Below, piece after piece: positions 6,801 through 40,583 of a DNA stretch of 64,000 bases. The translations under genes and the position numbers were made by a program. Under the pieces are notes generated by a model that saw only the letters and a list, made by a program, of their open reading frames with translations, was not told where the DNA came from and searched no databases. The stretch's first letter is position 1, and every line of letters starts with the position of its first letter. Source of the DNA: Actinocorallia populi (GTDB lineage: Bacteria > Actinomycetota > Actinomycetes > Streptosporangiales > Streptosporangiaceae); the NCBI RefSeq assembly GCF_002995495.1, contig NZ_PVZV01000006.1:496001-560000 (forward strand), in the 5' to 3' direction.

Positions 6801-7445
6801 TCAGGACAGGGCGGTGACGGCCTGGCGGAGGGCGGCCTGTTCGGAGTCGGGCAGCGTGCGGGTGGCGTGGAGGGTGTGCAGGGCGGTGGAGAGGCGCAGG
6901 CGGTCGTCGGGGGTGCCCAGGTCGCCCAGGAGCGAGGGCAGCAGGAGAGACAGGGATTTCAGGTCGCGGCGGTCGCACAGGGCGGCGGCCAGGGAGTCCA
7001 GGAGGGCGGCTGCGGGGTTCGGCGGCAGGGCGCCGCAGGCGCGCAGGCCCTCGGCGGCGGCCAGGCGGAGCCCGTCGGCGTACGGGCCAGGCGGGACGTC
7101 CGCCAGGCGTTCGGCGGCCAGGGTGAAGTGTTCGCGGGTCTGCTCGGGGGAGTCCAGGTCGCGGTGGGCGTGGGCGATGTTCAGGTGCAGGGAGGCGTAG
7201 AAGCCCTTGACGCGGTCGTCGGCCACGCGGTCGGCGCGCTTCAGGCACTCCTGGTTCCAGTGCAGGGTGTCGTGCGCGGTGGGCTGGTGGCGGGCGAGGT
7301 AATGGGCGGCGATGCAGGCCTCGTAGTCGTCGGCCGCGGTCTCCCACGCCTGCCGGAAGAGGTCGCGGGCGTCGTCGTCGCGGCCTTCGGCCTCGGCCTG
7401 CATGCCCTGGGAGCACAGCACGACCACGGGGTTGTCGGGATTCAT
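6801..7445 (-). CDS. TPR-like cytoplasmic protein of unknown function
   Basis: A 214-residue, all-helical protein, with alternating helices of TPR type (for example AEGRDDDARDLFRQAWETA near residue 20, then LNIAHAHRDLDSPEQTREHF near 110). It has no signal peptide or membrane segment. Close homologues are common in streptomycetes and relatives and are usually only annotated as TPR or hypothetical proteins. The start ATG has an AAGGAAG site seven bases upstream. It lies 65 bp downstream of the MerR-clamp gene on the same strand, so read-through is possible; a small GCGGAC/GTCCGC hairpin (7478-7499) lies in the gap. Confidence 0.75.
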   Translation of the reverse strand: MNPDNPVVVLCSQGMQAEAEGRDDDARDLFRQAWETAADDYEACIAAHYLARHQPTAHDTLHWNQECLKRADRVADDRVKGFYASLHLNIAHAHRDLDSPEQTREHFTLAAERLADVPPGPYADGLRLAAAEGLRACGALPPNPAAALLDSLAAALCDRRDLKSLSLLLPSLLGDLGTPDDRLRLSTALHTLHATRTLPDSEQAALRQAVTALS

Positions 7446-7510: not shown

Positions 7511-8647
7511 TCAGGCGCGGACGGGCATGACCAGCGTGGTGAAGCTGCCCTGGTCGGCGGAGCGGACCACGACGGGCCGGTCGGGGGCGGAGATCTCCAG
7601 CAGCACGTCGGGGCCCACGCTCGTCTCCAATGCAGGCAGCAGCACCCGGGGGTCGAAGTGCACCCGTGCGGGTGGTCCCGTGCACACCGCGGGCAGTGCC
7701 GTCTCCTTCAGGCCGGGCCCGCTCACGAGGAGGCTTTCCCCGCCGCCGTGCAGCAGGACCGGCTCCACGTCGGGGGCCGGCTGCCCGGCCGGAAGGTCTT
7801 CCACGGCGCCGTGACCGCTGTCGTCCCCGGCCGGGCGGCCGGGCCGCAGGCGGGCCAGCAGGGCGGCCAGGGGTTCGCGGGGCGTGATGACGCGGTGGCG
7901 GGCGGGGGACAGGTCCTGCAGGACGAGGCGGTAGGAGGGGAAGGGCTCGGCGAGGACGGGGAGGTGGAAGCGGCGGGGGCCGTCGTGCAGGTGGACGTCC
8001 GGGCCGCTCAGGTCGATCTCGACCTCGGGCAGGGGCAGCAGCCACGGGACGGCCCGCTGGAGGGCCTCGACGGGCACGGCCGCCTGGCGGGGGCCGCCCG
8101 TTGCCGATCCCGCGGGCAGGGTCCGGACGGACAGCCGGTAGCGGTCGGTGGCGGCCAGGCGCACCTCGTGCCCGTCGAGTTCCAGCAGCACGCAGCCCAG
8201 GACGGGGAAGCGGCCGAGGGTGGCGCCGCGGGCCACGGCGGATGCGACCTGGCGGATGGCTCCGGCCAGTTCGGGGCCGCCGAGACGGGCGCACACCGGT
8301 TCGGGGCCGTCGGGCAGGCCGCGCAGCAGCTCACCGATGACCGCCTGGGCGGCGAGCGCGGCCTCGCGGGTCTTGTCGGCGTGCCGTTGCAGGACGGCCC
8401 GCGCCCGGTCGGCGGGCCCGTCCAGGACCACCGAGGCGTCCGGCAGCGGCATCCCGGCGTCCCGCAGCCGCCGCACCAGCACGGCCCGCTCCTCCTGCTC
8501 GGGCGCGTAGGAGCGGTAGCCGGTCGCCGCGTCCACCCGGGCGGGCGGCAGCAGCCCGCAGTCGTCGTAGAACCTCAGGGTGCTGGGCGCCAGCCCCACC
8601 CGCCGCGCGAACACCCCGATGCTCATCAATCCGCCGGTCTCGTCCAT
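7511..8647 (-). CDS. MerR-family regulator fused to sliding-clamp (DnaN) domains
   Basis: The 378-residue protein starts with a MerR winged helix (about residues 8-75: MSIGVFARRVGLAPSTLRFYD, then GYRSYAPEQ) and a helical linker to about 115. The rest resembles the DNA polymerase III beta clamp: FPVLGCVLLELDG and ATDRYRLSVRTLP (about 147-178) match clamp domain 2, EPFPSYRLVL its end, and the C terminus (FDPRVLLPALE, RPVVVRSADQ, ending LVMPVRA) matches domain 3, including the clamp's typical PVR terminus. Clamp domain 1 is absent and is replaced by the MerR part. It may bind DNA through MerR and either dimerise through, or mimic, the clamp. Its promoter has a MerR-type 19-bp spacer. The ATG at 8647 or the one seven codons later could be the start. 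Confidence 0.85.
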   Translation of the reverse strand: MDETGGLMSIGVFARRVGLAPSTLRFYDDCGLLPPARVDAATGYRSYAPEQEERAVLVRRLRDAGMPLPDASVVLDGPADRARAVLQRHADKTREAALAAQAVIGELLRGLPDGPEPVCARLGGPELAGAIRQVASAVARGATLGRFPVLGCVLLELDGHEVRLAATDRYRLSVRTLPAGSATGGPRQAAVPVEALQRAVPWLLPLPEVEIDLSGPDVHLHDGPRRFHLPVLAEPFPSYRLVLQDLSPARHRVITPREPLAALLARLRPGRPAGDDSGHGAVEDLPAGQPAPDVEPVLLHGGGESLLVSGPGLKETALPAVCTGPPARVHFDPRVLLPALETSVGPDVLLEISAPDRPVVVRSADQGSFTTLVMPVRA

Positions 8648-8654
8648 GGACGTG

Positions 8655-8685
8655 ATTGTGGGCGTTCAACCTGCTTGAAGGTCAA
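8655..8685 (-). promoter_or_regulatory. MerR-type promoter and operator of the MerR-clamp gene
   Basis: On the minus strand, TTGACC (8685-8680) and CACAAT (8660-8655) are separated by exactly 19 bases, the overlong spacer typical of MerR-regulated promoters. The spacer contains the dyad TTCAA-N5-TTGAA (8665-8679). The -10 box lies just upstream of the gene start, so the transcript would be leaderless or nearly so. Confidence 0.6.
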
Positions 8686-30409: not shown

Positions 30410-31345
30410 TCAGCGGACCGGCGCGTGCGACAAGGCGGCCTCCACCACCTCCGGCACGCCGATGGACAGCAGCCGCGCGTCGGGACGGCGGCCTCGGGCA
30501 TCCCCCGGACGGCCGCCCTGCCCGTGCCAGATCACCCGGTGGCGGCGGTGCTCGGGCGGCCCCCACAGGCGCGGGGAGACCGGCCCGTACAGCGTCACCG
30601 ACGGGCGCGCGTAGGCGAAGGCCAGATGCGCCACCCCGGTGTCCCCGCTGACGACCAGGCGGGCCGCGGCCACCAGGGCCGCCAGCGCCGACAGGTCCAG
30701 CCGGCCGGCCAGCACCCGCTGCTCGGGCAGGGCCGCCAGCTCCGCGACCCGCTCGGCCAGGAGCCGCTCCCGGGCGCCGCCGGTGAGCACCACCCGGTGC
30801 CCGGCGTCCTCCAGCACCGCGGCGACCTCGGCGAACCGCCCGGCGGGCCAGCGGCGCGACGGATGGGCCGCACCCGGATGCACCACGGTCGCATCCACCA
30901 CGGGCGGGGCCACCGCGGGCCGCTCCAGCAGCAGGTCCGACGGGTCGGCCGGCAGGCAGTGCCAGCGCAGCAGCCGGCACCAGCGCGCCGTCTCGTGCTC
31001 CTCCTCCCGCCACCACGGGCCCGCCACGTCCGGAGCCGCCTGCGAGCCGTACATCCACTGGCCGCGCGCACCCGTGGCGGCGATGAGGCGGTGGCTGGCC
31101 GGGCCGTTGCCGTGCAGGTCCACCGCCAGGCGCGGCGGCGGCCCCCGCCACGGGATCGGCCGCAGCTCCCCCGTCGGCAGCAGCCGGTCCAGCGCCCCGG
31201 TCAACGGCACCAGCGGCGCCAGCACCCCCGGCGCGGCCAGCACGATCTCGCGGCCGGGATGCGCCGCCGCCAGCGCCCGGTAGGCCGGCACCCCGGTCAG
31301 AAAGTCACCCAGCCCCAGGGCCCGCAGGATCAGGACGGCGCTCAT
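30410..31345 (-). CDS. GT9 glycosyltransferase, heptosyltransferase family (distal)
   Basis: A 311-residue GT-B protein: LILRALGLGDFLTGVPAYRAL at the N terminus, the ADP-heptose-binding type block VVHPGAAHPSRRWPAGRFAEVA, VVLTGGARERLLAERVAEL, and LVVSGDTGVAHLAFAYARPSVTLYGPVSP. These are the motifs of LPS heptosyltransferases (WaaC/WaaF family). It is the last gene of the heptose-glycan operon and overlaps the previous stop by four bases. It probably transfers a heptose made by the upstream enzymes. Confidence 0.9.
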   Translation of the reverse strand: MSAVLILRALGLGDFLTGVPAYRALAAAHPGREIVLAAPGVLAPLVPLTGALDRLLPTGELRPIPWRGPPPRLAVDLHGNGPASHRLIAATGARGQWMYGSQAAPDVAGPWWREEEHETARWCRLLRWHCLPADPSDLLLERPAVAPPVVDATVVHPGAAHPSRRWPAGRFAEVAAVLEDAGHRVVLTGGARERLLAERVAELAALPEQRVLAGRLDLSALAALVAAARLVVSGDTGVAHLAFAYARPSVTLYGPVSPRLWGPPEHRRHRVIWHGQGGRPGDARGRRPDARLLSIGVPEVVEAALSHAPVR

Positions 31346-32292
31346 CGGGCCACGGCCTCGCGCAGCACCACGTCCCAGTCGGCCAGGAAGCGGCACAACC
31401 CGTAGCGGTCCAGCGCGGCCTCCCGCCCGGCCTTGCCCAGCGCCGCCGCCTCGTCCCGGTCGTGCACCAGGCGGCGCACCGCCTGCGCGAGCACGTCCGG
31501 ATTGGTGGACACGACACCAGCGCCCGGCGGGACCGCCTCGACCGCCTCGGTGGCCGCCAGCGCCACCACCGGCATCCCCAGGTACATCGCCTCGATCAGC
31601 GACAGGCCCAGCGACGTCCACCGGAACGGGTGCAGGTACACCCGGCGGCAGGCCAGCAGCTCGTGCATCCGCCCCTGGGGAAGGTCCTCGAAAGTGCACG
31701 CCTCGGCCAGGCCGAGCGCCTCGGGCAGGCCGGTGACCTTCATCCCGAACACATCGACCGGCACGCCCCCGGCCAGCCGGCCCAGCAGGTCGGTGCCCGC
31801 GTAGCGGCCCCGCCGCAGCGGCTCGTTGACCACCACCCCAGCGCGCGGCAGCTCCCCGCTCCACAACGCCCCCGGATCGAGCACCGCGTGCTCGACGACG
31901 CGCCGCTCGGTCGAGCCGCTGTCCCAGAACAGGTCGTTGAAGTGTGTGACGTGCACCAGCAGCACATCGCGCCGGTCGGCCATCGGATGGCGGGTCAGCG
32001 GCACCTCGCCCCACGGCGCGTCGTGCTCCAGGTACACCAGGGGCACCTTGCGCCCCAAAAAGCGGCGCAGCAGCTCCTCCTCGTGCGGGCGCTGCAGCAC
32101 GGCCACGTCCACGTCGTGGTCGGCCAGGCGCCCCAGCGGCACCTCCACCGCCGAGTCCGGCCACCGCCAGGTGCGGGCCCGGCCCCTGCCGTCGGGGTCG
32201 CGCCCGGGCGTGACCGGCAGCAGGTAGGTGTGATCGCCCTGCAGGAAGGCCGTGGTCCACGAGCCGTGCACATGCCAGATGAGAACGTTCAT
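31342..32292 (-). CDS. glycosyltransferase, GT-B type
   Basis: A 316-residue protein with NVLIWHVHGSWTTAFLQG at the N terminus and a GT4-like second half: EDLPQGRMHELLACRRVYLHPFRWTSLGLSLIEAMYLGMPVVALAATEAVEAVP. The H-x-F-R-W-T-S and LSLIEAM-LGMP blocks bind the donor nucleotide sugar. It is in the heptose operon; starts and stops overlap its neighbours by four bases. Donor and acceptor are not predicted. Confidence 0.87.
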   Translation of the reverse strand: MNVLIWHVHGSWTTAFLQGDHTYLLPVTPGRDPDGRGRARTWRWPDSAVEVPLGRLADHDVDVAVLQRPHEEELLRRFLGRKVPLVYLEHDAPWGEVPLTRHPMADRRDVLLVHVTHFNDLFWDSGSTERRVVEHAVLDPGALWSGELPRAGVVVNEPLRRGRYAGTDLLGRLAGGVPVDVFGMKVTGLPEALGLAEACTFEDLPQGRMHELLACRRVYLHPFRWTSLGLSLIEAMYLGMPVVALAATEAVEAVPPGAGVVSTNPDVLAQAVRRLVHDRDEAAALGKAGREAALDRYGLCRFLADWDVVLREAVAR

Positions 32293-33308
32293 CTCCCCGC
32301 CTCCTCCATCAGCGCCTCGGCCGCGTCGGCGGCCTCCTCGGCGCCCACCCCGTTCAGGCACGGATGGCCGGGCACCGGGCAGTCCACGGCCCGGCTGGCG
32401 CGGCACGCCGCGCGCTGGTCGCCCAGCAGCACGTGCGGCACCCGCCAGGGACGCCAGCGCGCCGCCGGGACGACCGGCGCGAACAGCGACACGATCGGCG
32501 TGCCCACGGCCGCGGCCAGGTGCGCGGGCCCGGTGTTGGCCGCCAGCACGACCCGGGCCCGCGCCAGCACCCCGGCCAGCTCGTGCAGGCCGGTGCGGCC
32601 GCCCAGGTCCAGGGCGTGCGCCCCGGCCACGTGCGCGGTCAGCTCCCGCTCGTCCGGCGCGCCCGTCACCACCACGCGGTGCCCGCGGCGCACCAGTTCC
32701 TTGACCGCGTCCACCCACCGCTCCCGCGGCCAGCGCCGCGCGGCGGCCGTGGCTCCCGGATGCACCGCCACATACGGGCCCTGCCCGGTCAGGGCGGCGG
32801 TGGGCGGCAGCGGGGTGCGCACCGCCAGTGCCCCGGTGTCGCCGGGCGGCGGCGCGAACCCGGCGGCGCGGGCCAGGGACAGGCCGCGCTCGGCCTCGTG
32901 CACGTCCTCGGCCACGCGGTGGCGCACGTCCAGGAGGCTGCCGGGGTAGTCGGTGCTGATCGCGCTGATCCGCCCGACCCCGGCCATGCGCAGCAGCAGC
33001 GCGACCGGCAGCGGCGACTGGTGGAAGGAGGTCAGGACCAGCGCCTCGGCGAACGAGGCGGCCGCGATCCGCTCCACCACCTCCCCGATCTCGCGCGCCC
33101 GCACCGGCGGCGGCTCGCGCACCACCCACGGGCACCGCCACACCAGCACCTGCGACACCCCCGGCAGCAGCCGCGCCGCCTGCTCGCCCTGCGGGCCGGC
33201 CAGCACCGCCACCCGCCCGTACCGGGCGTGCACCGCGCGCACGCACGGGCCGGCCAGCAGGACGTCGCCCGCCCCGTCCAGGCGCACCACCAGCGCCCCG
33301 CCGCTCAC
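32289..33308 (-). CDS. GT9 glycosyltransferase, heptosyltransferase family (proximal)
   Basis: A 339-residue GT9 protein: ALVVRLDGAGDVLLAGPCVRAV near the N terminus, YVAVHPGATAAARRWPRERW, VVVTGAPDERELTAHVA, and VVLAANTGPAHLAAAVGTPIVSLFAPVVP. The cysteines in RAACRASRAVDCPVPGHPCLNGV resemble a metal or disulfide site typical of this subgroup. The GTG start at 33308 overlaps the stop of the GT2-GmhB gene (GTGA). It is paralogous to the GT9 two genes downstream; two such enzymes suggest two heptose (or related) residues. Confidence 0.9.
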   Translation of the reverse strand: MSGGALVVRLDGAGDVLLAGPCVRAVHARYGRVAVLAGPQGEQAARLLPGVSQVLVWRCPWVVREPPPVRAREIGEVVERIAAASFAEALVLTSFHQSPLPVALLLRMAGVGRISAISTDYPGSLLDVRHRVAEDVHEAERGLSLARAAGFAPPPGDTGALAVRTPLPPTAALTGQGPYVAVHPGATAAARRWPRERWVDAVKELVRRGHRVVVTGAPDERELTAHVAGAHALDLGGRTGLHELAGVLARARVVLAANTGPAHLAAAVGTPIVSLFAPVVPAARWRPWRVPHVLLGDQRAACRASRAVDCPVPGHPCLNGVGAEEAADAAEALMEEAGR

Positions 33309-34810
33309 CGCCACAGCCGGCCCCCCGACGCCTCGCCGAGCGCGAACCGCACGGCCGTCATCAGGTCCGGCGCGCACCGCGCCCCCCGCAGCTCCTCACG
33401 GCGCGTCTGGGCGGTGGGCACCAGCACCGAACGGGCCCCGGCCGCCCGCGCGGCCTGGACGTCGGAGCCGATGTCGCCGACGACCACGCACTGCCAGACC
33501 GGCACGCCCAGCCCCGCGGCGGCGCGGGTGACCAGGCCCGGCGCGGGCTTGCGGCAGGCGCAGCCGTCGTCGCCGCCGTGCGGGCAGGTCTCCCATACCT
33601 CGAAGGGCCCCAGCAGCTCCTGCACCCGCCGGTTGACCGCCGCCATGTCCTCGGCGGAGAAGCGTCCCGCCGCCAGACCCGACTGGTTGCTGACCACCCC
33701 CAGCCGCAGGCCGCGGCTGCGCGCCAGGTCCAGTGCCTCGCGTGCCCCCGGCAGCGGCTCCACCAGGTCGGGGTCCCCGTTGTAGGGGACGTCGTGCACC
33801 AGGGTGCCGTCGCGGTCCAGCAGCAGCGCCTGGGCCGGTCCGGGCCAAGGCCGCGCGGCGCGGGAGCGGGCCAGCCCGCCGAACCAGTGCCAGGAGGCGG
33901 CCGGCGGGATGAGCAGACTGGTGCCCAGCATCAGCGCCACCTCCCGCACGTCGCGCGGACCCGGCAGGATGCGGGCTGCCGCGAACTCCCCGACCCCCGC
34001 CAGCGCCGCCAGGCCCGCCATGCCCGCCAGGCGGCGCCGTCCGGCCAGGGCCGCGCCCGCCGCCAGCGCGCCGGCCGCGGTGATGGCCAGATGGCGGGGC
34101 CTGCGCCCCACGTGCTCCCCGGCCCGGCGGTGCCAGTCGCGGCCGTGCACGGCGCACATCAGCGCGTCGTCGGCGTTTCCCGCCTGGGCGCGCAGGCTCG
34201 CCGACGCCGAGGACGGCCGCACCGGGTGCAGGGTGCGGCGCTCGCCGACGGACAGCTCCCACCCGTCGGCCTGCACGCGCAGCGCCAGGTCGGCGTCCTC
34301 GCGGAACGCGCGCGGGAACCGCTCGTCGAAACCGCCGGCCTCCACCAGCGCGGTGCGGCGGTAGGCCAGGTCCGCGGTGGCCCACCGGGCCCGGGACAGG
34401 CCCGCGGTCACCCGCTCCCAGTCCGTGGGCGCCCGCCCCGGCGGCAGCGGCACGGTGATGCGGCCCTGCACCCCGGCCACCCGCTCGTCGGCCCGCTTCA
34501 GGTCGACGGCCAGCGCCGCGTACCAGTCCTCCTCCACCACCACGTCGTCGTCCAGGAACACCACCCACGGGGTGCGGGTGCGGCGCCAGCCCATGTTGCG
34601 GGCCGCCGCGGGGCCCCGCCCCCGGCTGGCCACCACCCGCACCAGGCAGGCCAGCTCGCCGGGGACGCGCACGACCGGGCCGCCGCGGGGACGGTCGTCG
34701 ACCAGGACGATCTCCTCGGGCGGCGGGCCCCAGGCACGGGCCAGGGAGTCCAGGCAGGCGCGCAGGGACGGCCGCACCAGGGTCGGGATCACGATGCTGT
34801 AGCCGTTCAT
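33305..34810 (-). CDS. GT2 glycosyltransferase fused to GmhB heptose-bisphosphate phosphatase
   Basis: A 501-residue bifunctional protein. Residues 1 to about 215 are a GT2 domain (YSIVIPTLVRPSL, EIVLVDDRPRG, WVVFLDDDVVVEEDW), then a hydrophobic alanine-rich section (about 235-310, one or two membrane helices), then a HAD-IIIA phosphatase from about 330: LLLDRDGTLVHDVPYNGDP with both catalytic aspartates, VVSNQSGLAAGRFS, and the zinc loop CPHGGDDGCACRKPAPG typical of GmhB. The phosphatase would remove the C7 phosphate of heptose-1,7-bisphosphate. Fusion to a transferase is unusual. The gene lies between carbamoyltransferase and GT9 with four-base overlaps. Confidence 0.9.
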   Translation of the reverse strand: MNGYSIVIPTLVRPSLRACLDSLARAWGPPPEEIVLVDDRPRGGPVVRVPGELACLVRVVASRGRGPAAARNMGWRRTRTPWVVFLDDDVVVEEDWYAALAVDLKRADERVAGVQGRITVPLPPGRAPTDWERVTAGLSRARWATADLAYRRTALVEAGGFDERFPRAFREDADLALRVQADGWELSVGERRTLHPVRPSSASASLRAQAGNADDALMCAVHGRDWHRRAGEHVGRRPRHLAITAAGALAAGAALAGRRRLAGMAGLAALAGVGEFAAARILPGPRDVREVALMLGTSLLIPPAASWHWFGGLARSRAARPWPGPAQALLLDRDGTLVHDVPYNGDPDLVEPLPGAREALDLARSRGLRLGVVSNQSGLAAGRFSAEDMAAVNRRVQELLGPFEVWETCPHGGDDGCACRKPAPGLVTRAAAGLGVPVWQCVVVGDIGSDVQAARAAGARSVLVPTAQTRREELRGARCAPDLMTAVRFALGEASGGRLWR

Positions 34811-36432
34811 CGCCGCACCACGAAGGATCCGAGGGCCAGCAGGTCGATGGGCGTGGAGCCGAAGCACTCCAGCGCGTCGCGGATGTCGTCCACCATGGGC
34901 CTTCCAGCGGTGTTGAGGCTGGTGTTGACCAGCACGGGCAGGCCGGTGCGCCTTTCGAAGGCGTCCAGCAGGCGGGCGGTCAGCGGCTCGTCGGCCGCGT
35001 CGACCGTCTGCACTCGGGCGGTGCCGTCCACGTGCACCGCGGCGGGGATGCGGTCCTGCCAGGCGGGCGCGACGTCGTGGACGAACAACATGTAGGGACT
35101 GGGAAGCGGGCCGCGCTGGAAGATCTCCGCCGCGCGGCCGGCCGCCACCATCGGGGCCACGGGCCGGAACTGCTCGCGGCCCTTGACGTCGTTGAGGCGC
35201 TCGAGGTTGGCGCGGTGCCCGGGATGGGCCAGCAGGGAGCGGTGCCCCAGCGCGCGCGGCCCGAACTCGGCCCTGCCCTGCACCCAGGCGACGATGCCGT
35301 TGCCGGCCAGGACCTCGGCGGCGGCCTCGGCGACGTCACCGGGCCGCTCGTAGCGCACCCGGGAGCGGCGCAGCGCCCGCTCGATCTCCCCGTCGTCCAG
35401 GTCCCGGCCCAGATCGGCGCCCCGCATCGTCCACGGCTCCTGGCCGCTGGAGGCGCTGAGCTGCAGCGCCGCGCCCAGGGAGGTGCCGGCATCGCCCGCG
35501 GCGGGCTGCACCCATACCCGCTCGAACGGGCCCTGCCGGGCCAGGACGGTGTTGGCCACGCAGTTCAGCGCCGTGCCGCCGGCCATCGCCAGCAGCCGCT
35601 CGCCGGTCTGGGCGTGCAGCAGGCGGGCCTGCTCCAGCAGCACCTCCTCCAGGCGGCGCTGGGCGCTGGCGGCGACGTCGGCGTGCGCGTCGGTGCAGGG
35701 CGTGTCCGGCGCGCGCGGCGGGCACAGCGACGCCCAGTCGACGGGGTCGGTGCGAAACCCCCCGGCGGGGTGGACGCGCACCGCCTCGCGCAGCAGGTCC
35801 AGATGGCGGGGCTTGCCGTAGGAGGCCAGCGCCATCACCTTGTACTCGTCGCTGGAGCGCAGGAATCCCAGGTGCTGGGTGAGGTCCTCGTAGAACAGGC
35901 CGAGGGAGTGCGGCAGCGGCTGGGTCGCCAGCACCTCCAGTTCGCCGTCGCGGTAGCGGCCGGCCAGGTGCGAGCCGTCCTCGCCGCGCCCGTCGTTGAC
36001 CAGCACCGCGCACGAGCGGGCCGGGGCCGCCAGCCCCGCCGACGCGGCGTGCGCCACGTGGTGGGGGACGAAGACGGCCTTGGCCGGGTCCAGGCCGGGC
36101 AGTTCCTCGGCCAGCAGGGTGGGCGCCATCCGCGCGTACCGGATGCGCAGGTCGTCGAACGGGTCGTCCAGGCCCATCTCGTGCGCCGGTCTGGCCAGCG
36201 CCGGATCGTAGGAGAAGGCGACGGCGTCCAGGTCGGCGGCGCTCAGCCCGGCGTGCCGCAGGCACCACCGGGCGGCCTGCCCGGGTTGCTCCCAGGCGGA
36301 GAACGGCACCGGCCGCTTGCCGTGCTTGCGGCGGCTGAACCTCTCCTCCTCGGCCGCGGCGACCGGCCGGCCGTCGACGACCAGCGCCGCCGCGGGATCG
36401 TGGAATATCGCGTTGATTCCCAGGACTCGCAT
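34807..36432 (-). CDS. NodU/CmcH-type O-carbamoyltransferase
   Basis: A 541-residue carbamoyltransferase: RVLGINAIFHDPAAALVVDG at the N terminus, PHHVAHAASAGL with the metal-binding histidines, SDEYKVMALASYGKP, LAMAGGTALNCVANT, and the C-terminal FGPRALGHRSLLAHP, LVNTSLNTAGRPMVD. Enzymes of this family carbamoylate sugar hydroxyls with carbamoyl phosphate and ATP (as in nodulation factors, tobramycin, cephamycin). Here the acceptor is probably a sugar of the heptose glycan. It starts 14 bases after the epimerase gene; its stop overlaps the GT2-GmhB start. Confidence 0.92.
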   Translation of the reverse strand: MRVLGINAIFHDPAAALVVDGRPVAAAEEERFSRRKHGKRPVPFSAWEQPGQAARWCLRHAGLSAADLDAVAFSYDPALARPAHEMGLDDPFDDLRIRYARMAPTLLAEELPGLDPAKAVFVPHHVAHAASAGLAAPARSCAVLVNDGRGEDGSHLAGRYRDGELEVLATQPLPHSLGLFYEDLTQHLGFLRSSDEYKVMALASYGKPRHLDLLREAVRVHPAGGFRTDPVDWASLCPPRAPDTPCTDAHADVAASAQRRLEEVLLEQARLLHAQTGERLLAMAGGTALNCVANTVLARQGPFERVWVQPAAGDAGTSLGAALQLSASSGQEPWTMRGADLGRDLDDGEIERALRRSRVRYERPGDVAEAAAEVLAGNGIVAWVQGRAEFGPRALGHRSLLAHPGHRANLERLNDVKGREQFRPVAPMVAAGRAAEIFQRGPLPSPYMLFVHDVAPAWQDRIPAAVHVDGTARVQTVDAADEPLTARLLDAFERRTGLPVLVNTSLNTAGRPMVDDIRDALECFGSTPIDLLALGSFVVRR

Positions 36433-36446
36433 CCGTGCTCCCTCAT

Positions 36447-37403
36447 TCACACGTGGGCCAGGCGGTCGGCGAACCACTCGATGGTGCGGGCCAGGCCTTT
36501 CTCGGGTGCCACGCGCGGCTCCCATCCCAGCAGCCGGCGGGCCAGCGCCACGTCCGGGCAGCGCACGCTGGGGTCGTCGACGGGGCGCGGGACGAACTCG
36601 ATCGGCGAGCGCGAACCGCACAGGCGGCGGATCGTGCGGGCCAGGTCGGCGATGGTGGTCTCGCTGCCGTTGCCGATGTTGACCGGGCCGCTCTCGCCGC
36701 TGAAGGCCAGCGCCAGGACGCCTTCGACGGTGTCGTCGACGTAGCAGATCGACCGGGTCTGGGTGCCGTCGCCGGCGACCGTCAGCGGCTCGCCCGCCAG
36801 CGCCTGGCGGATGAAGGTGGGGATGGCGCGGCCGTCGTGCGGGCGCATCCGGGGCCCGTAGGTGTTGAAGATGCGCACGATGCCGGTGTCGGCGCCGCGG
36901 CTGTGGCGGTAGGCGGTCGTCAGGGCCTCGGCGTAGCGTTTGGCCTCGTCGTAGACGCTGCGCGGCCCGACGGGGTTGACGTTGCCCCAGTAGTCCTCGC
37001 GCTGGGGGTGGCGCAGCGGGTCGCCGTAGACCTCGCTGGTGGAGGCCAGGACGAACCTGGCGGTCTTCTCCCGGGCCAGGCCCAGGGCGTGCATCGTGCC
37101 GAGCGCGCCGACCTTCAGTGTCTCCAGCGGCAGTTTCAGGTAGTCCACCGGGGACGCGGCCGAGGCGAAGTGCAGGACCAGGTCGACCGGCCCGGAGACG
37201 TGCACGAAGTCCGTCAGGTCGCACTCCACGACCTGGAAGCCCGGCCGTCCCAGCAGGTGGATGAGGTTGTGCGGGGTGCCGGTGAGGAAGTTGTCCATGC
37301 AGATGACCGACACGCCGCGTTCCAGCAGCCGCTCGCACAGGTGCGAGCCCAGGAAGCCGGCGCCTCCGGTGACGACCGCCCGTGCGATGGTGCGTCCGCT
37401 CAT
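36447..37403 (-). CDS. NAD-dependent sugar epimerase/decarboxylase, UDP-xylose-synthase-like
   Basis: A 318-residue extended [24 protein letters not shown] at the N terminus, [41 protein letters not shown] and [13 protein letters not shown] with the catalytic Y-x-x-x-K, then [24 protein letters not shown]. The blocks are those of UDP-glucuronate decarboxylase (UXS); dTDP-glucose dehydratase-like activity is less likely. In the operon it could make a pentose donor or modify the heptose nucleotide. The ATG overlaps the hldE stop by four bases. Confidence 0.88.
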
Positions 37404-38794
37404 GAGTGCTCACCTCCCGCGGTGTGGGCGCGCCGCACCAGGCGGGTGCTGGAGCGGCCCTCCAGGTAGGGCAGCAGCAGCACCTGGCCGCCGTGCCCGC
37501 GGACCAGCGGCGCCTCGGGCAGTTCCATCGGGCCGTAGTCGCCGCCCTTGACCCACAGGTCGGGGCGGAGCCTGTCCAGCAGCGCCATCGGCGTCTCCTC
37601 ATCGAAGATCATGACGGTGTCGACGCAGCCCAGCGCCGACAGCACCCGGGCCCGGTCCCGCTGGTCCATGACGGGCCGTCCGGGGCCCTTGAGGGCGCGC
37701 ACCGAGGCGTCGGAGTTCAGGCACACCACCAGCAGGTCGCCCAGCCGCGAGGCCTGGTGCAGCAGGCTGACGTGGCCGGGGTGCAGCAGGTCGAAGCAGC
37801 CTCCGGTGGCCACGACGGTGCCGCCCTGCAGGCGGGTGCGGCGCACCAGGTCCCACGGCTCCTCGCCCGCGGGCGCCTGCGTCCGGCGGGCCGGGCCGCC
37901 GGTGACGAACGCCGAGGCGTGGTGGACGCCCTGTTCGAGCGCCTCGGTCAGCAGCGCGCCCTCGGCGAGCGCGCCCGTCGTGGCGGCGGCCAGGCAGTCG
38001 CCCGCTCCGCAGGTGTCGGGCCTGCCCGGTACGTGCGGCGCGGGCACCAGGACGGGCGGCTGGTCTCCGGTGCACAGCAGGGCCCCGTGCTCGCCCATCG
38101 TCACGCTCACCCCCGAGGCCCGCCAGCGGGCGCGCAGCGCCGCGGCGTCCGTGGCGGCCTGGGCGTAGCCGCCGGAGCGGGCGGTGGGCGCGGTGGCGGC
38201 CAGGACGCGGGCCTCCTCGTGGTTGGGCGTCACCAGCCGTGCTCCCGCGACGGGCTCGGCGCCGCGCGGGTGCGGGTCCCACACCAGCGGCACCTCGCCG
38301 GGCAGGTCCTCCAGCAGTGCCCGCAGCACCGGGTGGGCGGCGGTGCCGCGGCCGTAGTCCGACACCAGGACCGCGCCCGCGCCGCGGACGGCCGCGGCCG
38401 CGGCGTCGGGCAGGCCGGCGCGGCCGTGCAGGCGCCCGTCGCCGCGGTCCACCCGCACCAGGGGCCTGCCGTGCGCGATCAGCCGGGTCTTGCGGACCGT
38501 GCGGCCGCTCAGGGCCAGCCGCACCACCCGCACTCCCTGTTCCTCCAGCAGTTCCAGCAGGGTCAGCGCGTCGGGGTCGTCGGTGTCGGCCAGCGGGGTG
38601 ATGAGCACCGTCTCGCGTGCCGTGCGCAGCCGGGCCGCCTGCACCGCGGCCAGTCCCGCCCCGCCGGGGCGGGGGCGTTCGGCGGCCAGGTCGACCACCG
38701 GCACCGGCGCGTCCGGCGCCAGGCGCTGGGAGGTGCCCTGCAGGTCGACGTCCAGGAGCGTGTCGCCGACCACGACCAGCGGTCCGGCCCTCAT
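37400..38794 (-). CDS. hldE: bifunctional heptose 7-phosphate kinase / heptose 1-phosphate adenylyltransferase
   Basis: The 464-residue protein joins a PfkB/ribokinase domain (about 1-310; [29 protein letters not shown] and the catalytic [17 protein letters not shown]) to a cytidylyltransferase-like domain (about 330-464; [20 protein letters not shown] with the HxGH motif, and [17 protein letters not shown]). This is the HldE fusion: it phosphorylates heptose-7-phosphate at C1 and, after GmhB, adds a nucleotide. Which nucleotide is used cannot be told from the sequence. Both flanking junctions are ATGA overlaps. Confidence 0.93.
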
Positions 38795-39372
38795 GCCCGC
38801 ACCACCGCCCGGTGCGGGACGCGCACCTGCTCGTCGACGACCTCGCACAGCAGGTGCACCACCGCCAGGTGCGCCTCCTGCACGGTGGCGGTCGAGGGCG
38901 CGTCCACGATCAGCGCCTCCTGGCAGGCCGCGGCCAGCGGGTTGGGCGCGGGGCCGGTCAGCGCCCACGTGCGCATCCCCGCGCGGGCGGCGGTGTGGGC
39001 GGCGCACACGATGTTGCGGCTGGTGCCGCTGGTCGACAGGGCCAGCAGGACGTCGCCGGGGCGGCCGTGCGCGCGCACCTGGCGCGCGTACAGCTCCTCG
39101 GCCCCGTAGTCGTTGACGATCGCGGTGACCGCGGAGGTGTCGCAGTGCAGGGACAGCGCCGAGAACGGGCGGCGCTCGCCCTGGTAGCGGCCGACGAGTT
39201 CGGCGGTCAGGTGCTGGGCCTGGGCGGCGCTGCCGCCGTTGCCGCAGGCCAGCAGGCGTCCGCCGTCCTGCAGCGTGCGGGCCAGGAGGCGGCCCCAGCG
39301 CAGCAGCAGCGGGCTCTGGCCGCGCACCCTGTGCAGCGCGGCCTCCAGGCGGGTCAGATGGTCGTCGATCAT
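38791..39372 (-). CDS. gmhA: phosphoheptose isomerase (SIS domain)
   Basis: A 193-residue SIS protein: LLACGNGGSAAQAQHLTAELVG binds the sugar phosphate, DVLLALSTSGTSRNIVCAA is the second SIS loop, and VQEAHLAVVHLLCEVVDEQ holds the catalytic histidine/glutamine region. It converts sedoheptulose-7-phosphate to D-glycero-D-manno-heptose-7-phosphate, the first step of heptose nucleotide synthesis. The length matches GmhA. It lies between the GT4 and hldE genes, with four-base overlaps on both sides. Confidence 0.92.
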   Translation of the reverse strand: MIDDHLTRLEAALHRVRGQSPLLLRWGRLLARTLQDGGRLLACGNGGSAAQAQHLTAELVGRYQGERRPFSALSLHCDTSAVTAIVNDYGAEELYARQVRAHGRPGDVLLALSTSGTSRNIVCAAHTAARAGMRTWALTGPAPNPLAAACQEALIVDAPSTATVQEAHLAVVHLLCEVVDEQVRVPHRAVVRA

Positions 39373-40583
39373 GAGCTGGCCTCCCCCATCGGCACGGTGG
39401 CGCGGGCGGCCACCTTGGCGTGGACGGCTTCGGTCCCGGCCGCCACCCGCTCCCAGGAGTACAGGGCGCGGGCGCGGCGCACCGCGGCGTCGCCCATGGT
39501 GCGGCGCCGGGCGGGATCGTTCAGGACGCGTTGCAGCGCCGCGGTGAGCGCCCGCGGGTCGCGCGGCGGGACCAGCAGCCCGGTCACGCCGTCCACGACG
39601 GTGTCGAGGTGGCCGCCGACCGCGGAGGCGACCACGGGCGTGCCGCAGGCCATCGCCTCGACGGGCACCATCCCGAACGGCTCGTACCAGGGGACGCCGA
39701 CCACGACGTCGGCCGAGCGCATCAGCGCCGGGACGTCCTCGTGCGGCACGCCGCCCAGGAACTCGACGCGGTCGGCGATGCCGTGGCGTTCGGCGACGGC
39801 ACGCCAGCGCGCGACCTCGGGGTCGCGGTCCAGGTCCCGGCGGGCGGGGCCGCCGGCGACCAGCAGCTCGGCCTCGGGCAGGGACGCCATCGCCTCCAGG
39901 ACGGTGTCCAGGCCCTTGCGGCGCACCAGGCGGCTGACGCTCAGCACGCGGGGCCGCCCGCCCCGCCCGGCGGCCGGGCCGTCGGGCCGGAACATGCGCA
40001 GGTCCACCCCGCACGGCACGATCTCCAGCCGGGAGGGGTGCACGCCCAGGGCGTACAGGTCCTCGGCCTCGCAGGTGCAGGTGGCGATGACGGCCTGGGC
40101 GCGGCGGGCCACCAGCGGCTCCAGGCGGTGGCGTTCGGGCGGGCTGGTGTCGGCGCCTCCCTGGTGGCGGCGCTTGACGACGCCCAGCGCGTGGAAGGTC
40201 TGCACCACGGGGATGCCCAGCTGCTGCGCGCCGGTCAGGGCGGCCCAGCCGCTCATCCAGAAGTGGCCGTGCACGACGTCGGGCGGCTCGGTCAGCCAGC
40301 GGCGCGTCAGGTGTTCGGCGAAGGCCCGCATGTGGGGCATCAGCGCGTCCTTGGACACCGGCTGCGGCGGCCCCGCGTCGACGTGCTCGACGGTGAATCC
40401 GGCGGGGGCGCGCACGGACGGCGGCGGGTCGGGCGAATCCCGGCGGGTGAAGACGGTGACCTCGTGTCCCCGCTCGGCCAGCGCGCCCGCCAGTGCGGCG
40501 ACGTAGACGTTCTGTCCGCCTGCGTCCTCCCCGCCCAGAACTGCCAGCGGGCTAGCGTGTTCGGAGACCATGTGAACGAGCAA
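39369..40583 (-). CDS. GT4 glycosyltransferase, first gene of the heptose operon
   Basis: A 404-residue GT-B enzyme: VSEHASPLAVLGGEDAGGQN at the N terminus, DVVHGHFWMSGWAAL, RPRVLSVSRLVRRKGLDTVLEA, and the donor site VVGVPWYEPFGMVPVEAMACGTPVVAS with the EX7E motif. It resembles sucrose-phosphate-synthase/mannosyl-type GT4 proteins. A TTG at 40583 gives the same N-terminal length as relatives (five residues before VSEH) and has GGAGG five bases upstream; the ATG at 40571 is the alternative. The intergenic region of 293 bp upstream should hold the operon promoter. Confidence 0.85.
   Translation of the reverse strand: MLVHMVSEHASPLAVLGGEDAGGQNVYVAALAGALAERGHEVTVFTRRDSPDPPPSVRAPAGFTVEHVDAGPPQPVSKDALMPHMRAFAEHLTRRWLTEPPDVVHGHFWMSGWAALTGAQQLGIPVVQTFHALGVVKRRHQGGADTSPPERHRLEPLVARRAQAVIATCTCEAEDLYALGVHPSRLEIVPCGVDLRMFRPDGPAAGRGGRPRVLSVSRLVRRKGLDTVLEAMASLPEAELLVAGGPARRDLDRDPEVARWRAVAERHGIADRVEFLGGVPHEDVPALMRSADVVVGVPWYEPFGMVPVEAMACGTPVVASAVGGHLDTVVDGVTGLLVPPRDPRALTAALQRVLNDPARRRTMGDAAVRRARALYSWERVAAGTEAVHAKVAARATVPMGEASS

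Follow-up and report, generated by a model that had tools for sequence, protein, structure and literature searches.

The gene at positions 7511-8647 of the window (the whole stretch of 64,000 nucleotides of DNA analysed here) encodes a MerR regulator fused to domains 2 and 3 of a bacterial sliding clamp. The fusion itself, an observation already made in the original prediction, is confirmed, and the protein is taken to be a MerR regulator with a new kind of effector domain; to our knowledge, no MerR effector domain has been described as deriving from a replication protein. The clamp is the ring protein that keeps DNA polymerase on DNA. Its peptide pocket, where clamp partners and some antibiotics bind, is preserved in its inner part, and the protein appears to control its own small operon only; a drug target may thus have been made into a sensor. 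The best explanation of the whole, on which we stand evenly balanced, is a one-component, self-regulated MerR sensor with half a sliding clamp as its ligand domain.

Architecture and distribution of the fusion

The gene and its domains are arranged as follows:
7511-8647, minus strand: MerR-clamp fusion gene, 378 aa (open reading frame, Pfam and AF2 model)
8420-8626, minus strand: MerR winged-helix DNA-binding domain, residues 8-76 (Pfam MerR_1, E 5.4e-15)
8318-8413, minus strand: long helix, residues 79-110, presumably the MerR-type dimerisation helix (DSSP on the AF2 monomer model)
7913-8302, minus strand: clamp domain 2, residues 116-245 with approximate borders (Pfam DNA_pol3_beta_2 at 126-228 and structural alignment)
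7514-7897, minus strand: clamp domain 3, approximately residues 251-378, with a low-confidence insertion inside it (AF2 model and structural alignment; Pfam beta_3 only at E 0.069)

The N-terminal part is the MerR winged helix that had been predicted, and Pfam MerR_1 is present in all 42 aligned members of the family, the window copy included. The closest solved proteins by sequence to residues 5-111 or 7-111 are 5xbt and BrlR (5xql). Comparison of a predicted monomer with DnaN, a check proposed at the outset, gives an AF2 model that aligns structurally to the clamp over residues 115-378 and, together with the sequence matches, bears out the assignment of clamp domains 2 and 3. Domain 1 is missing, as had also been proposed: the clamp match starts at residue 115, and the residues before this point belong to the MerR domain and the helix (Pfam, AF2 model). 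A chance resemblance or another fold is ruled out by the same sequence matches, model and alignment. The protein presumably dimerises through the MerR helix and sits on its own promoter.

A pseudogene or an assembly chimera is also ruled out, because relatives exist in other genomes and on plasmids. At E 1e-20, matches occur in at least 21 of 341 genomes of the host's family and in at least 30 of 394 genomes of its class (which we take to be Actinomycetes), these counts being lower bounds because few candidates were scored per genome. The 30 class genomes fall into nine families, although two of them (G066 and G615) hold fragments and one family is represented by a fragment only. In a sample of 296 genomes from the phylum, 54 match; nine of these matches span the MerR and clamp parts, all within the class, and the other 45 genomes match in the clamp part only and are read as plain DnaN, so that no fusion is found outside the class in this sample. 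Within the genus to which G464 belongs, presumably Streptomyces, one subfamily, B, gives matches (some partial) in at least 78 of 295 genomes. Eight plasmid records from Streptomyces, Kitasatospora and Embleya contain a copy, annotated in seven only as “MerR family transcriptional regulator” and in the eighth with no gene listed at that place. In two of four plasmid records examined, transposase or IS genes closely flank the copy on either side. No phage record matched the fusion.

In a tree built from the clamp part, one branch separates the fusions from DnaN (100/99). The fusions form three groups: A, which includes the window copy (18 rows, 82/92), A' (13 rows, 100/95) and B (11 rows, 100/98). 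A single origin is likely but not proven, since the bootstrap is unsettled and long branches meet. The underlying alignment, A1, covers 42 of 50 loci, drawn from a cluster of 48 (window included) plus L057 and L100. Left out are L037 and L109 (MerR proteins without a clamp part, judged by length and match), L039, L050 and L106 (short), L091 (a fusion with a TPR protein) and the fragments L057 and L100. Four of these were assigned to subfamilies by similarity and not by the tree, namely L039 and L050 to A, L106 to B and L091 to A'.

Around the fusion gene, neighbour names were read by eye apart from nine proteins checked with Pfam. Neighbour clusters present in at least four of the 50 loci include ABC ATPases (at least 10 loci) and MFS transporters (at least six), and no constant transporter, biosynthetic cluster or resistant DnaN is found near the fusion in the 50 loci, within up to about 10 kb. 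In three of the 50 the fusion gene directly follows dnaB in the rpsF-ssb-rpsR-rplI-dnaB region, and in a fourth it lies two called genes beyond dnaB; DnaB was verified by Pfam in two of these loci and SSB in one. Elsewhere in the window, reading by eye suggests a heptose-type sugar pathway at positions 30410-40571 (kinase/nucleotidyltransferase, isomerase, glycosyltransferases, carbamoyltransferase). ARAGORN calls a 92-base tRNA-Cys at 38799-38890, minus strand, at the junction of two overlapping genes of this pathway, possibly a false positive.

The peptide pocket and the ring interface

Three motifs of the clamp's peptide pocket are placed on the window copy by alignment:
8132-8149, minus strand: pocket motif TDRYRL, residues 167-172 (E. 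coli clamp 172-177)
7928-7942, minus strand: pocket motif FPSYR, residues 236-240 (E. coli clamp 241-245)
7517-7531, minus strand: pocket motif VMPVR, residues 373-377 (E. coli clamp 361-365)

To measure pocket conservation, the fusions were compared with E. coli DnaN and with 28 DnaN proteins that the same genomes encode. The 28 come from 30 fetched loci, L117 and L123 being left out as no frame passed the filter; the DnaN search covered 40 genomes, and additional DnaN proteins there lie outside the set. In this connection, four carriers of the MerR-clamp fusion (G304, G516, G578 and G127) have a divergent extra dnaN, 35-49% identical to the DnaN of the window genome. The pocket residues are divided into two parts: in E. 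coli numbering, we take the inner pocket to comprise 155, 172, 174-177, 242, 247, 346, 360 and 362, and the outer pocket and rim N320, F/Y323, R365 and L366.

Among columns conserved to at least 90% in the 28 DnaN proteins, the fusions keep the DnaN residue at 65% in 16 pocket columns vs 30% in the 103 others. None of 20,000 permutations reaches the pocket value, although the sequences are related and this p is not a phylogenetic test. With hydrophobic or small columns only, the figures are 69% (11 columns) and 32% (81 columns), with p 0.0004 if kinship is ignored. All 42 fusions have the same residue at each of the equivalents of E. coli T172, M362 and P363, the last two being M374 and P375 of the window copy. 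Over the 11 columns of the inner pocket the majority residue of DnaN is retained at 88% on average, column 247 being the low point at only 33%.

The outer pocket separates the subfamilies. In A, N320 is replaced by D in 15 of 18 members and F/Y323 by V or T in 16 of 18, and R365 is kept in eight of 18; A and A' share this pattern of a kept inner pocket and a largely lost outer part. Subfamily B retains N320 in nine of 11, F/Y323 in 11 of 11 and R365 in 10 of 11, and with them nearly the whole pocket. The loss coincides with the two subfamilies that have a TPR partner gene (below). This preference for pocket residues supports a role for the fusion that depends on the clamp's peptide pocket, as originally envisaged, although the residues may be kept for reasons of fold. 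With the outer half lost in the window's subfamily, canonical clamp ligands may therefore not fit there. A paper on antibiotics that bind this pocket describes two subsites, with Met362 as a gate and Arg365 as a hydrogen-bond partner (PMC10817943).

The suggestion that the fusion could form a ring or half-ring fares less well: domain 1 is missing and the stretch taken as the ring interface (E. coli residues 255-284, in domain 3) is altered in length, so this is not supported. The stretch has 28 residues in all 28 DnaN proteins vs 21-26 in 39 of 42 fusions; the window copy belongs to the remaining three, with 48 residues resulting from an insertion. In the four inner clamp helices the charge of the fusions relative to DnaN is lower in two and slightly higher in two, and a loss of the charge for sliding on DNA is therefore not claimed.

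Promoter, TPR partner and internal start

The fusion gene is flanked on its own strand by an operator-promoter and a second gene:
8655-8685, minus strand: operator-promoter, with -35 TTGACC (8685-8680), a 19-bp spacer holding the palindrome TTCAA..TTGAA, and -10 CACAAT (8660-8655)
6801-7445, minus strand: TPR partner gene, 214 aa, 65 bp downstream of the fusion gene (all-helical AF2 model, pLDDT 96; TPR families match its relatives)

MerR-regulated promoters are marked by a 19-20 bp spacer that encloses a palindrome (PMC11049809, PMC1526738), and such a palindromic operator within a long-spacer promoter is present in 46 of 46 members with readable upstream DNA, the window included (L037, L109, L057 and L100 are not in this count). 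All 46 have TTGAC[C/T]-N20-A-N3-T, 29-59 bp before the start and with a 19-bp spacer, when the TTGAC[C/T] with the best palindrome within 220 bp is chosen at each locus. The operator is conserved among members down to about 30% identity. It recurs in 30 of 30 loci of a second subfamily B set (the best 30 of 80 matches, at least two of them repeating earlier loci), and among 744 other genes in the family's loci only four show such a site within 65 bp upstream. In many copies, including that of the window, about 7 bases separate the -10 from the start codon, a distance at which the message is probably leaderless.

How many other promoters carry the operator? At two mismatches or fewer, a stringency that would miss looser operators, the window operator is the only match to the family pattern in the host genome. 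The A pattern likewise finds one site, the gene's own promoter, in 15 of 16 genomes and two in G001, where the second is directly upstream of an unlinked TPR gene. The B pattern gives a single site in 15 of 15, and a reversed control pattern has no occurrence in any of the 31 genomes. A wide regulon is rejected at this stringency, 30 of the 31 having a single site. With one site per genome, the fusion seems to control its own operon and little else, an autoregulation predicted from the promoter sequence.

The second gene of the operon is conserved in the subfamilies A and A', where 27 of 34 loci have a TPR relative behind the fusion gene, on the same strand (24 called genes, L043 with a 119-residue match and no gene called, L089, and L091, in which fusion and TPR protein are joined in one 533-aa open reading frame). 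In the other seven no TPR gene adjoins, and one of these, L096, has a 39-residue remnant. Subfamily B has an adjoining TPR gene in none of 12 loci. Pfam TPR_12 matches 17 of 22 relatives of the partner protein, and the window copy itself has no TPR-family match at E 0.1. The pair is kept on three of the plasmids examined, in whose records the confirmed TPR neighbour is annotated “hypothetical protein”. The two incomplete copies, L057 and L100, consist of a clamp fragment followed by a TPR gene, with the MerR part not found. A scan of the TPR proteins with the clamp-binding consensus gives one weak match in 22; the TPR protein therefore need not be a canonical ligand of the pocket.

Away from the fusion, in 15 loci hand-picked from 45 matches, TPR relatives lie directly downstream of a uracil-DNA glycosylase (UDG) gene in nine, with UDG checked by Pfam in three of the nine, and beside ligA in one (LigA confirmed by Pfam). 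The order UDG then TPR gene in L196-L201 and L205-L207 makes the TPR protein a possible, unstudied repair partner; a search of the open-licence literature found no paper linking uracil-DNA glycosylase and the clamp. Together with the dnaB/ssb neighbourhoods, the UDG loci hint at ties to DNA replication or repair.

Subfamily B has, by sequence, an internal start. At one column of the linker, 29 of 30 fetched copies (the best 30 of 80 matches in 78 genomes) have an in-frame ATG after a ribosome site, and in the remaining copy, L178, a GTG follows one codon later, read by eye. The ribosome site, GGGAG, is present in 30 of 30; the runner-up column has a possible start in 13 of 30. The Arg codon within the site is AGG in 28 of 30 copies, whereas AGG and AGA together account for 58 of the 1225 Arg codons of these genes, the 28 included. 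The first set is more diverse, and 10 of its 11 aligned B members have the internal start (nine with ATG and site, L095 with GTG and site), L105 being the sole exception. Its conservation predicts that subfamily B also makes a free clamp half of about 245 aa. The linker of the window copy contains only a GTG without a ribosome site, and in A and A' start codons with a candidate site turn up here and there (L042 is an example), at no conserved position.

Candidate functions and known systems

The fusion's own promoter with its 19-bp spacer, the TPR partner and the internal start of one subfamily point to a dedicated, self-regulated sensor and not to a global regulator of replication. A molecule fitting the pocket, such as a clamp-binding peptide or an antibiotic of the griselimycin or mycoplanecin kind, would bind between domains 2 and 3 and switch the dimer, so that the over-long spacer would be distorted and the operon turned on. 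The output would be more of the clamp-like receptor and, in the window's subfamily, of the TPR protein too. Much as TipA sequesters thiopeptides, the receptor would be a decoy that spares the real clamp; more generally the product, be it full-length, a free clamp half or paired with the TPR protein, would serve as decoy or effector. For subfamily B this decoy would be the free clamp half from the internal start; in the window's subfamily the TPR partner would probably complete or cap the ligand site, or pass the signal on. The window copy has no internal start, and a decoy of the TipAS type would therefore apply to subfamily B only. That the protein senses pocket ligands in general has roughly an even chance of being right. 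Clamp-binding antibiotics as the natural ligand are a tentative proposal, with the balance somewhat against it; griselimycins come from Streptomyces. Equally doubtful, if possible, is the fuller picture of an antibiotic target turned detector, in which a MerR switch is joined by a free decoy in B and by the TPR partner in the window's subfamily to give a sensor and sponge for replication inhibitors or peptides. Two points count against the sensor reading: the window's subfamily has lost the outer pocket, and no resistance or biosynthetic gene is a constant neighbour in the 50 loci.

The main rival is a sensor of the state of replication or repair, the pocket reading the cell's own clamp-binding motifs (polymerases, ligase, mismatch repair) or unloaded clamp partners and the TPR protein acting in repair or replication. 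The kept pocket, the four loci at or near dnaB and the TPR relatives next to UDG genes or ligA all agree with it. However, the patchy, accessory spread through family and class, the plasmid copies flanked by transposase or IS genes in two records and the one target site found in 30 of 31 genomes are more in keeping with a cassette than with core control of replication, and we consider this rival unlikely.

The clamp part could also be a structural module only, serving to position the MerR dimer, to oligomerise it or to bind the TPR protein, with no small-molecule or peptide ligand in the pocket. The conserved TPR gene next door, fused outright in L091, fits this idea, as do the near-absence of a clamp-binding motif from the TPR proteins and an outer pocket that is lost where the TPR gene is present and largely kept where it is not, as if the TPR protein had replaced it. 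Subfamily B, however, retains nearly the whole pocket without any adjoining TPR gene, and a purely structural role seems rather improbable. A competitor of the real clamp, titrating clamp partners or phage-encoded clamp inhibitors and slowing replication under stress, could draw on the free clamp half predicted in B, but it would need high expression and no phage record matched; we regard it as very improbable.

For the preferred reading, a sensor of pocket ligands, promoter and pocket are both well defined, so that this and the replication-state reading are testable together. Should the pocket sense ligands, the family would supply a ready-made reporter for natural products that bind the clamp, and an example of an antibiotic target turned receptor. 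Should it read clamp-binding motifs of the cell itself, it would give a direct transcriptional readout of the replisome.

The MerR-clamp architecture appears in no paper found in the open-licence literature, outside which most subscription journals and bioRxiv preprints fall. With bacterial DnaN the fusion shares domains 2 and 3 and the inner part of the peptide pocket, and it differs in lacking domain 1, in its MerR head and in the altered ring-interface stretch. BrlR, a MerR regulator with a ligand-binding domain, is together with 5xbt the closest solved protein by sequence in the N-terminal part, but the C-terminal domain of the fusion is half a clamp. GriR and MypR, of the griselimycin and mycoplanecin clusters, are also clamp homologues tied to clamp-binding antibiotics; they are described as DnaN genes for self-resistance, not as transcription factors (PMC10817943). 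A parallel in design is TipA of Streptomyces (TipAL/TipAS), which likewise joins a MerR DNA-binding part to a C-terminal effector domain, acts on its own promoter and has a second internal start before the effector domain, as does subfamily B. Its two isoforms arise from two start codons, and antibiotic sequestration is ascribed to it; it is also said to activate several genes (PMC7762955), whereas the fusion has one site per genome. The window copy also differs in having a TPR partner gene and no internal start, and Pfam scans of the fusions give no match to the TipAS domain, a clamp fold taking its place. The parts are known, but the fusion is neither a clamp, being without domain 1, nor a TipA, since its effector domain is another one, half a sliding clamp.
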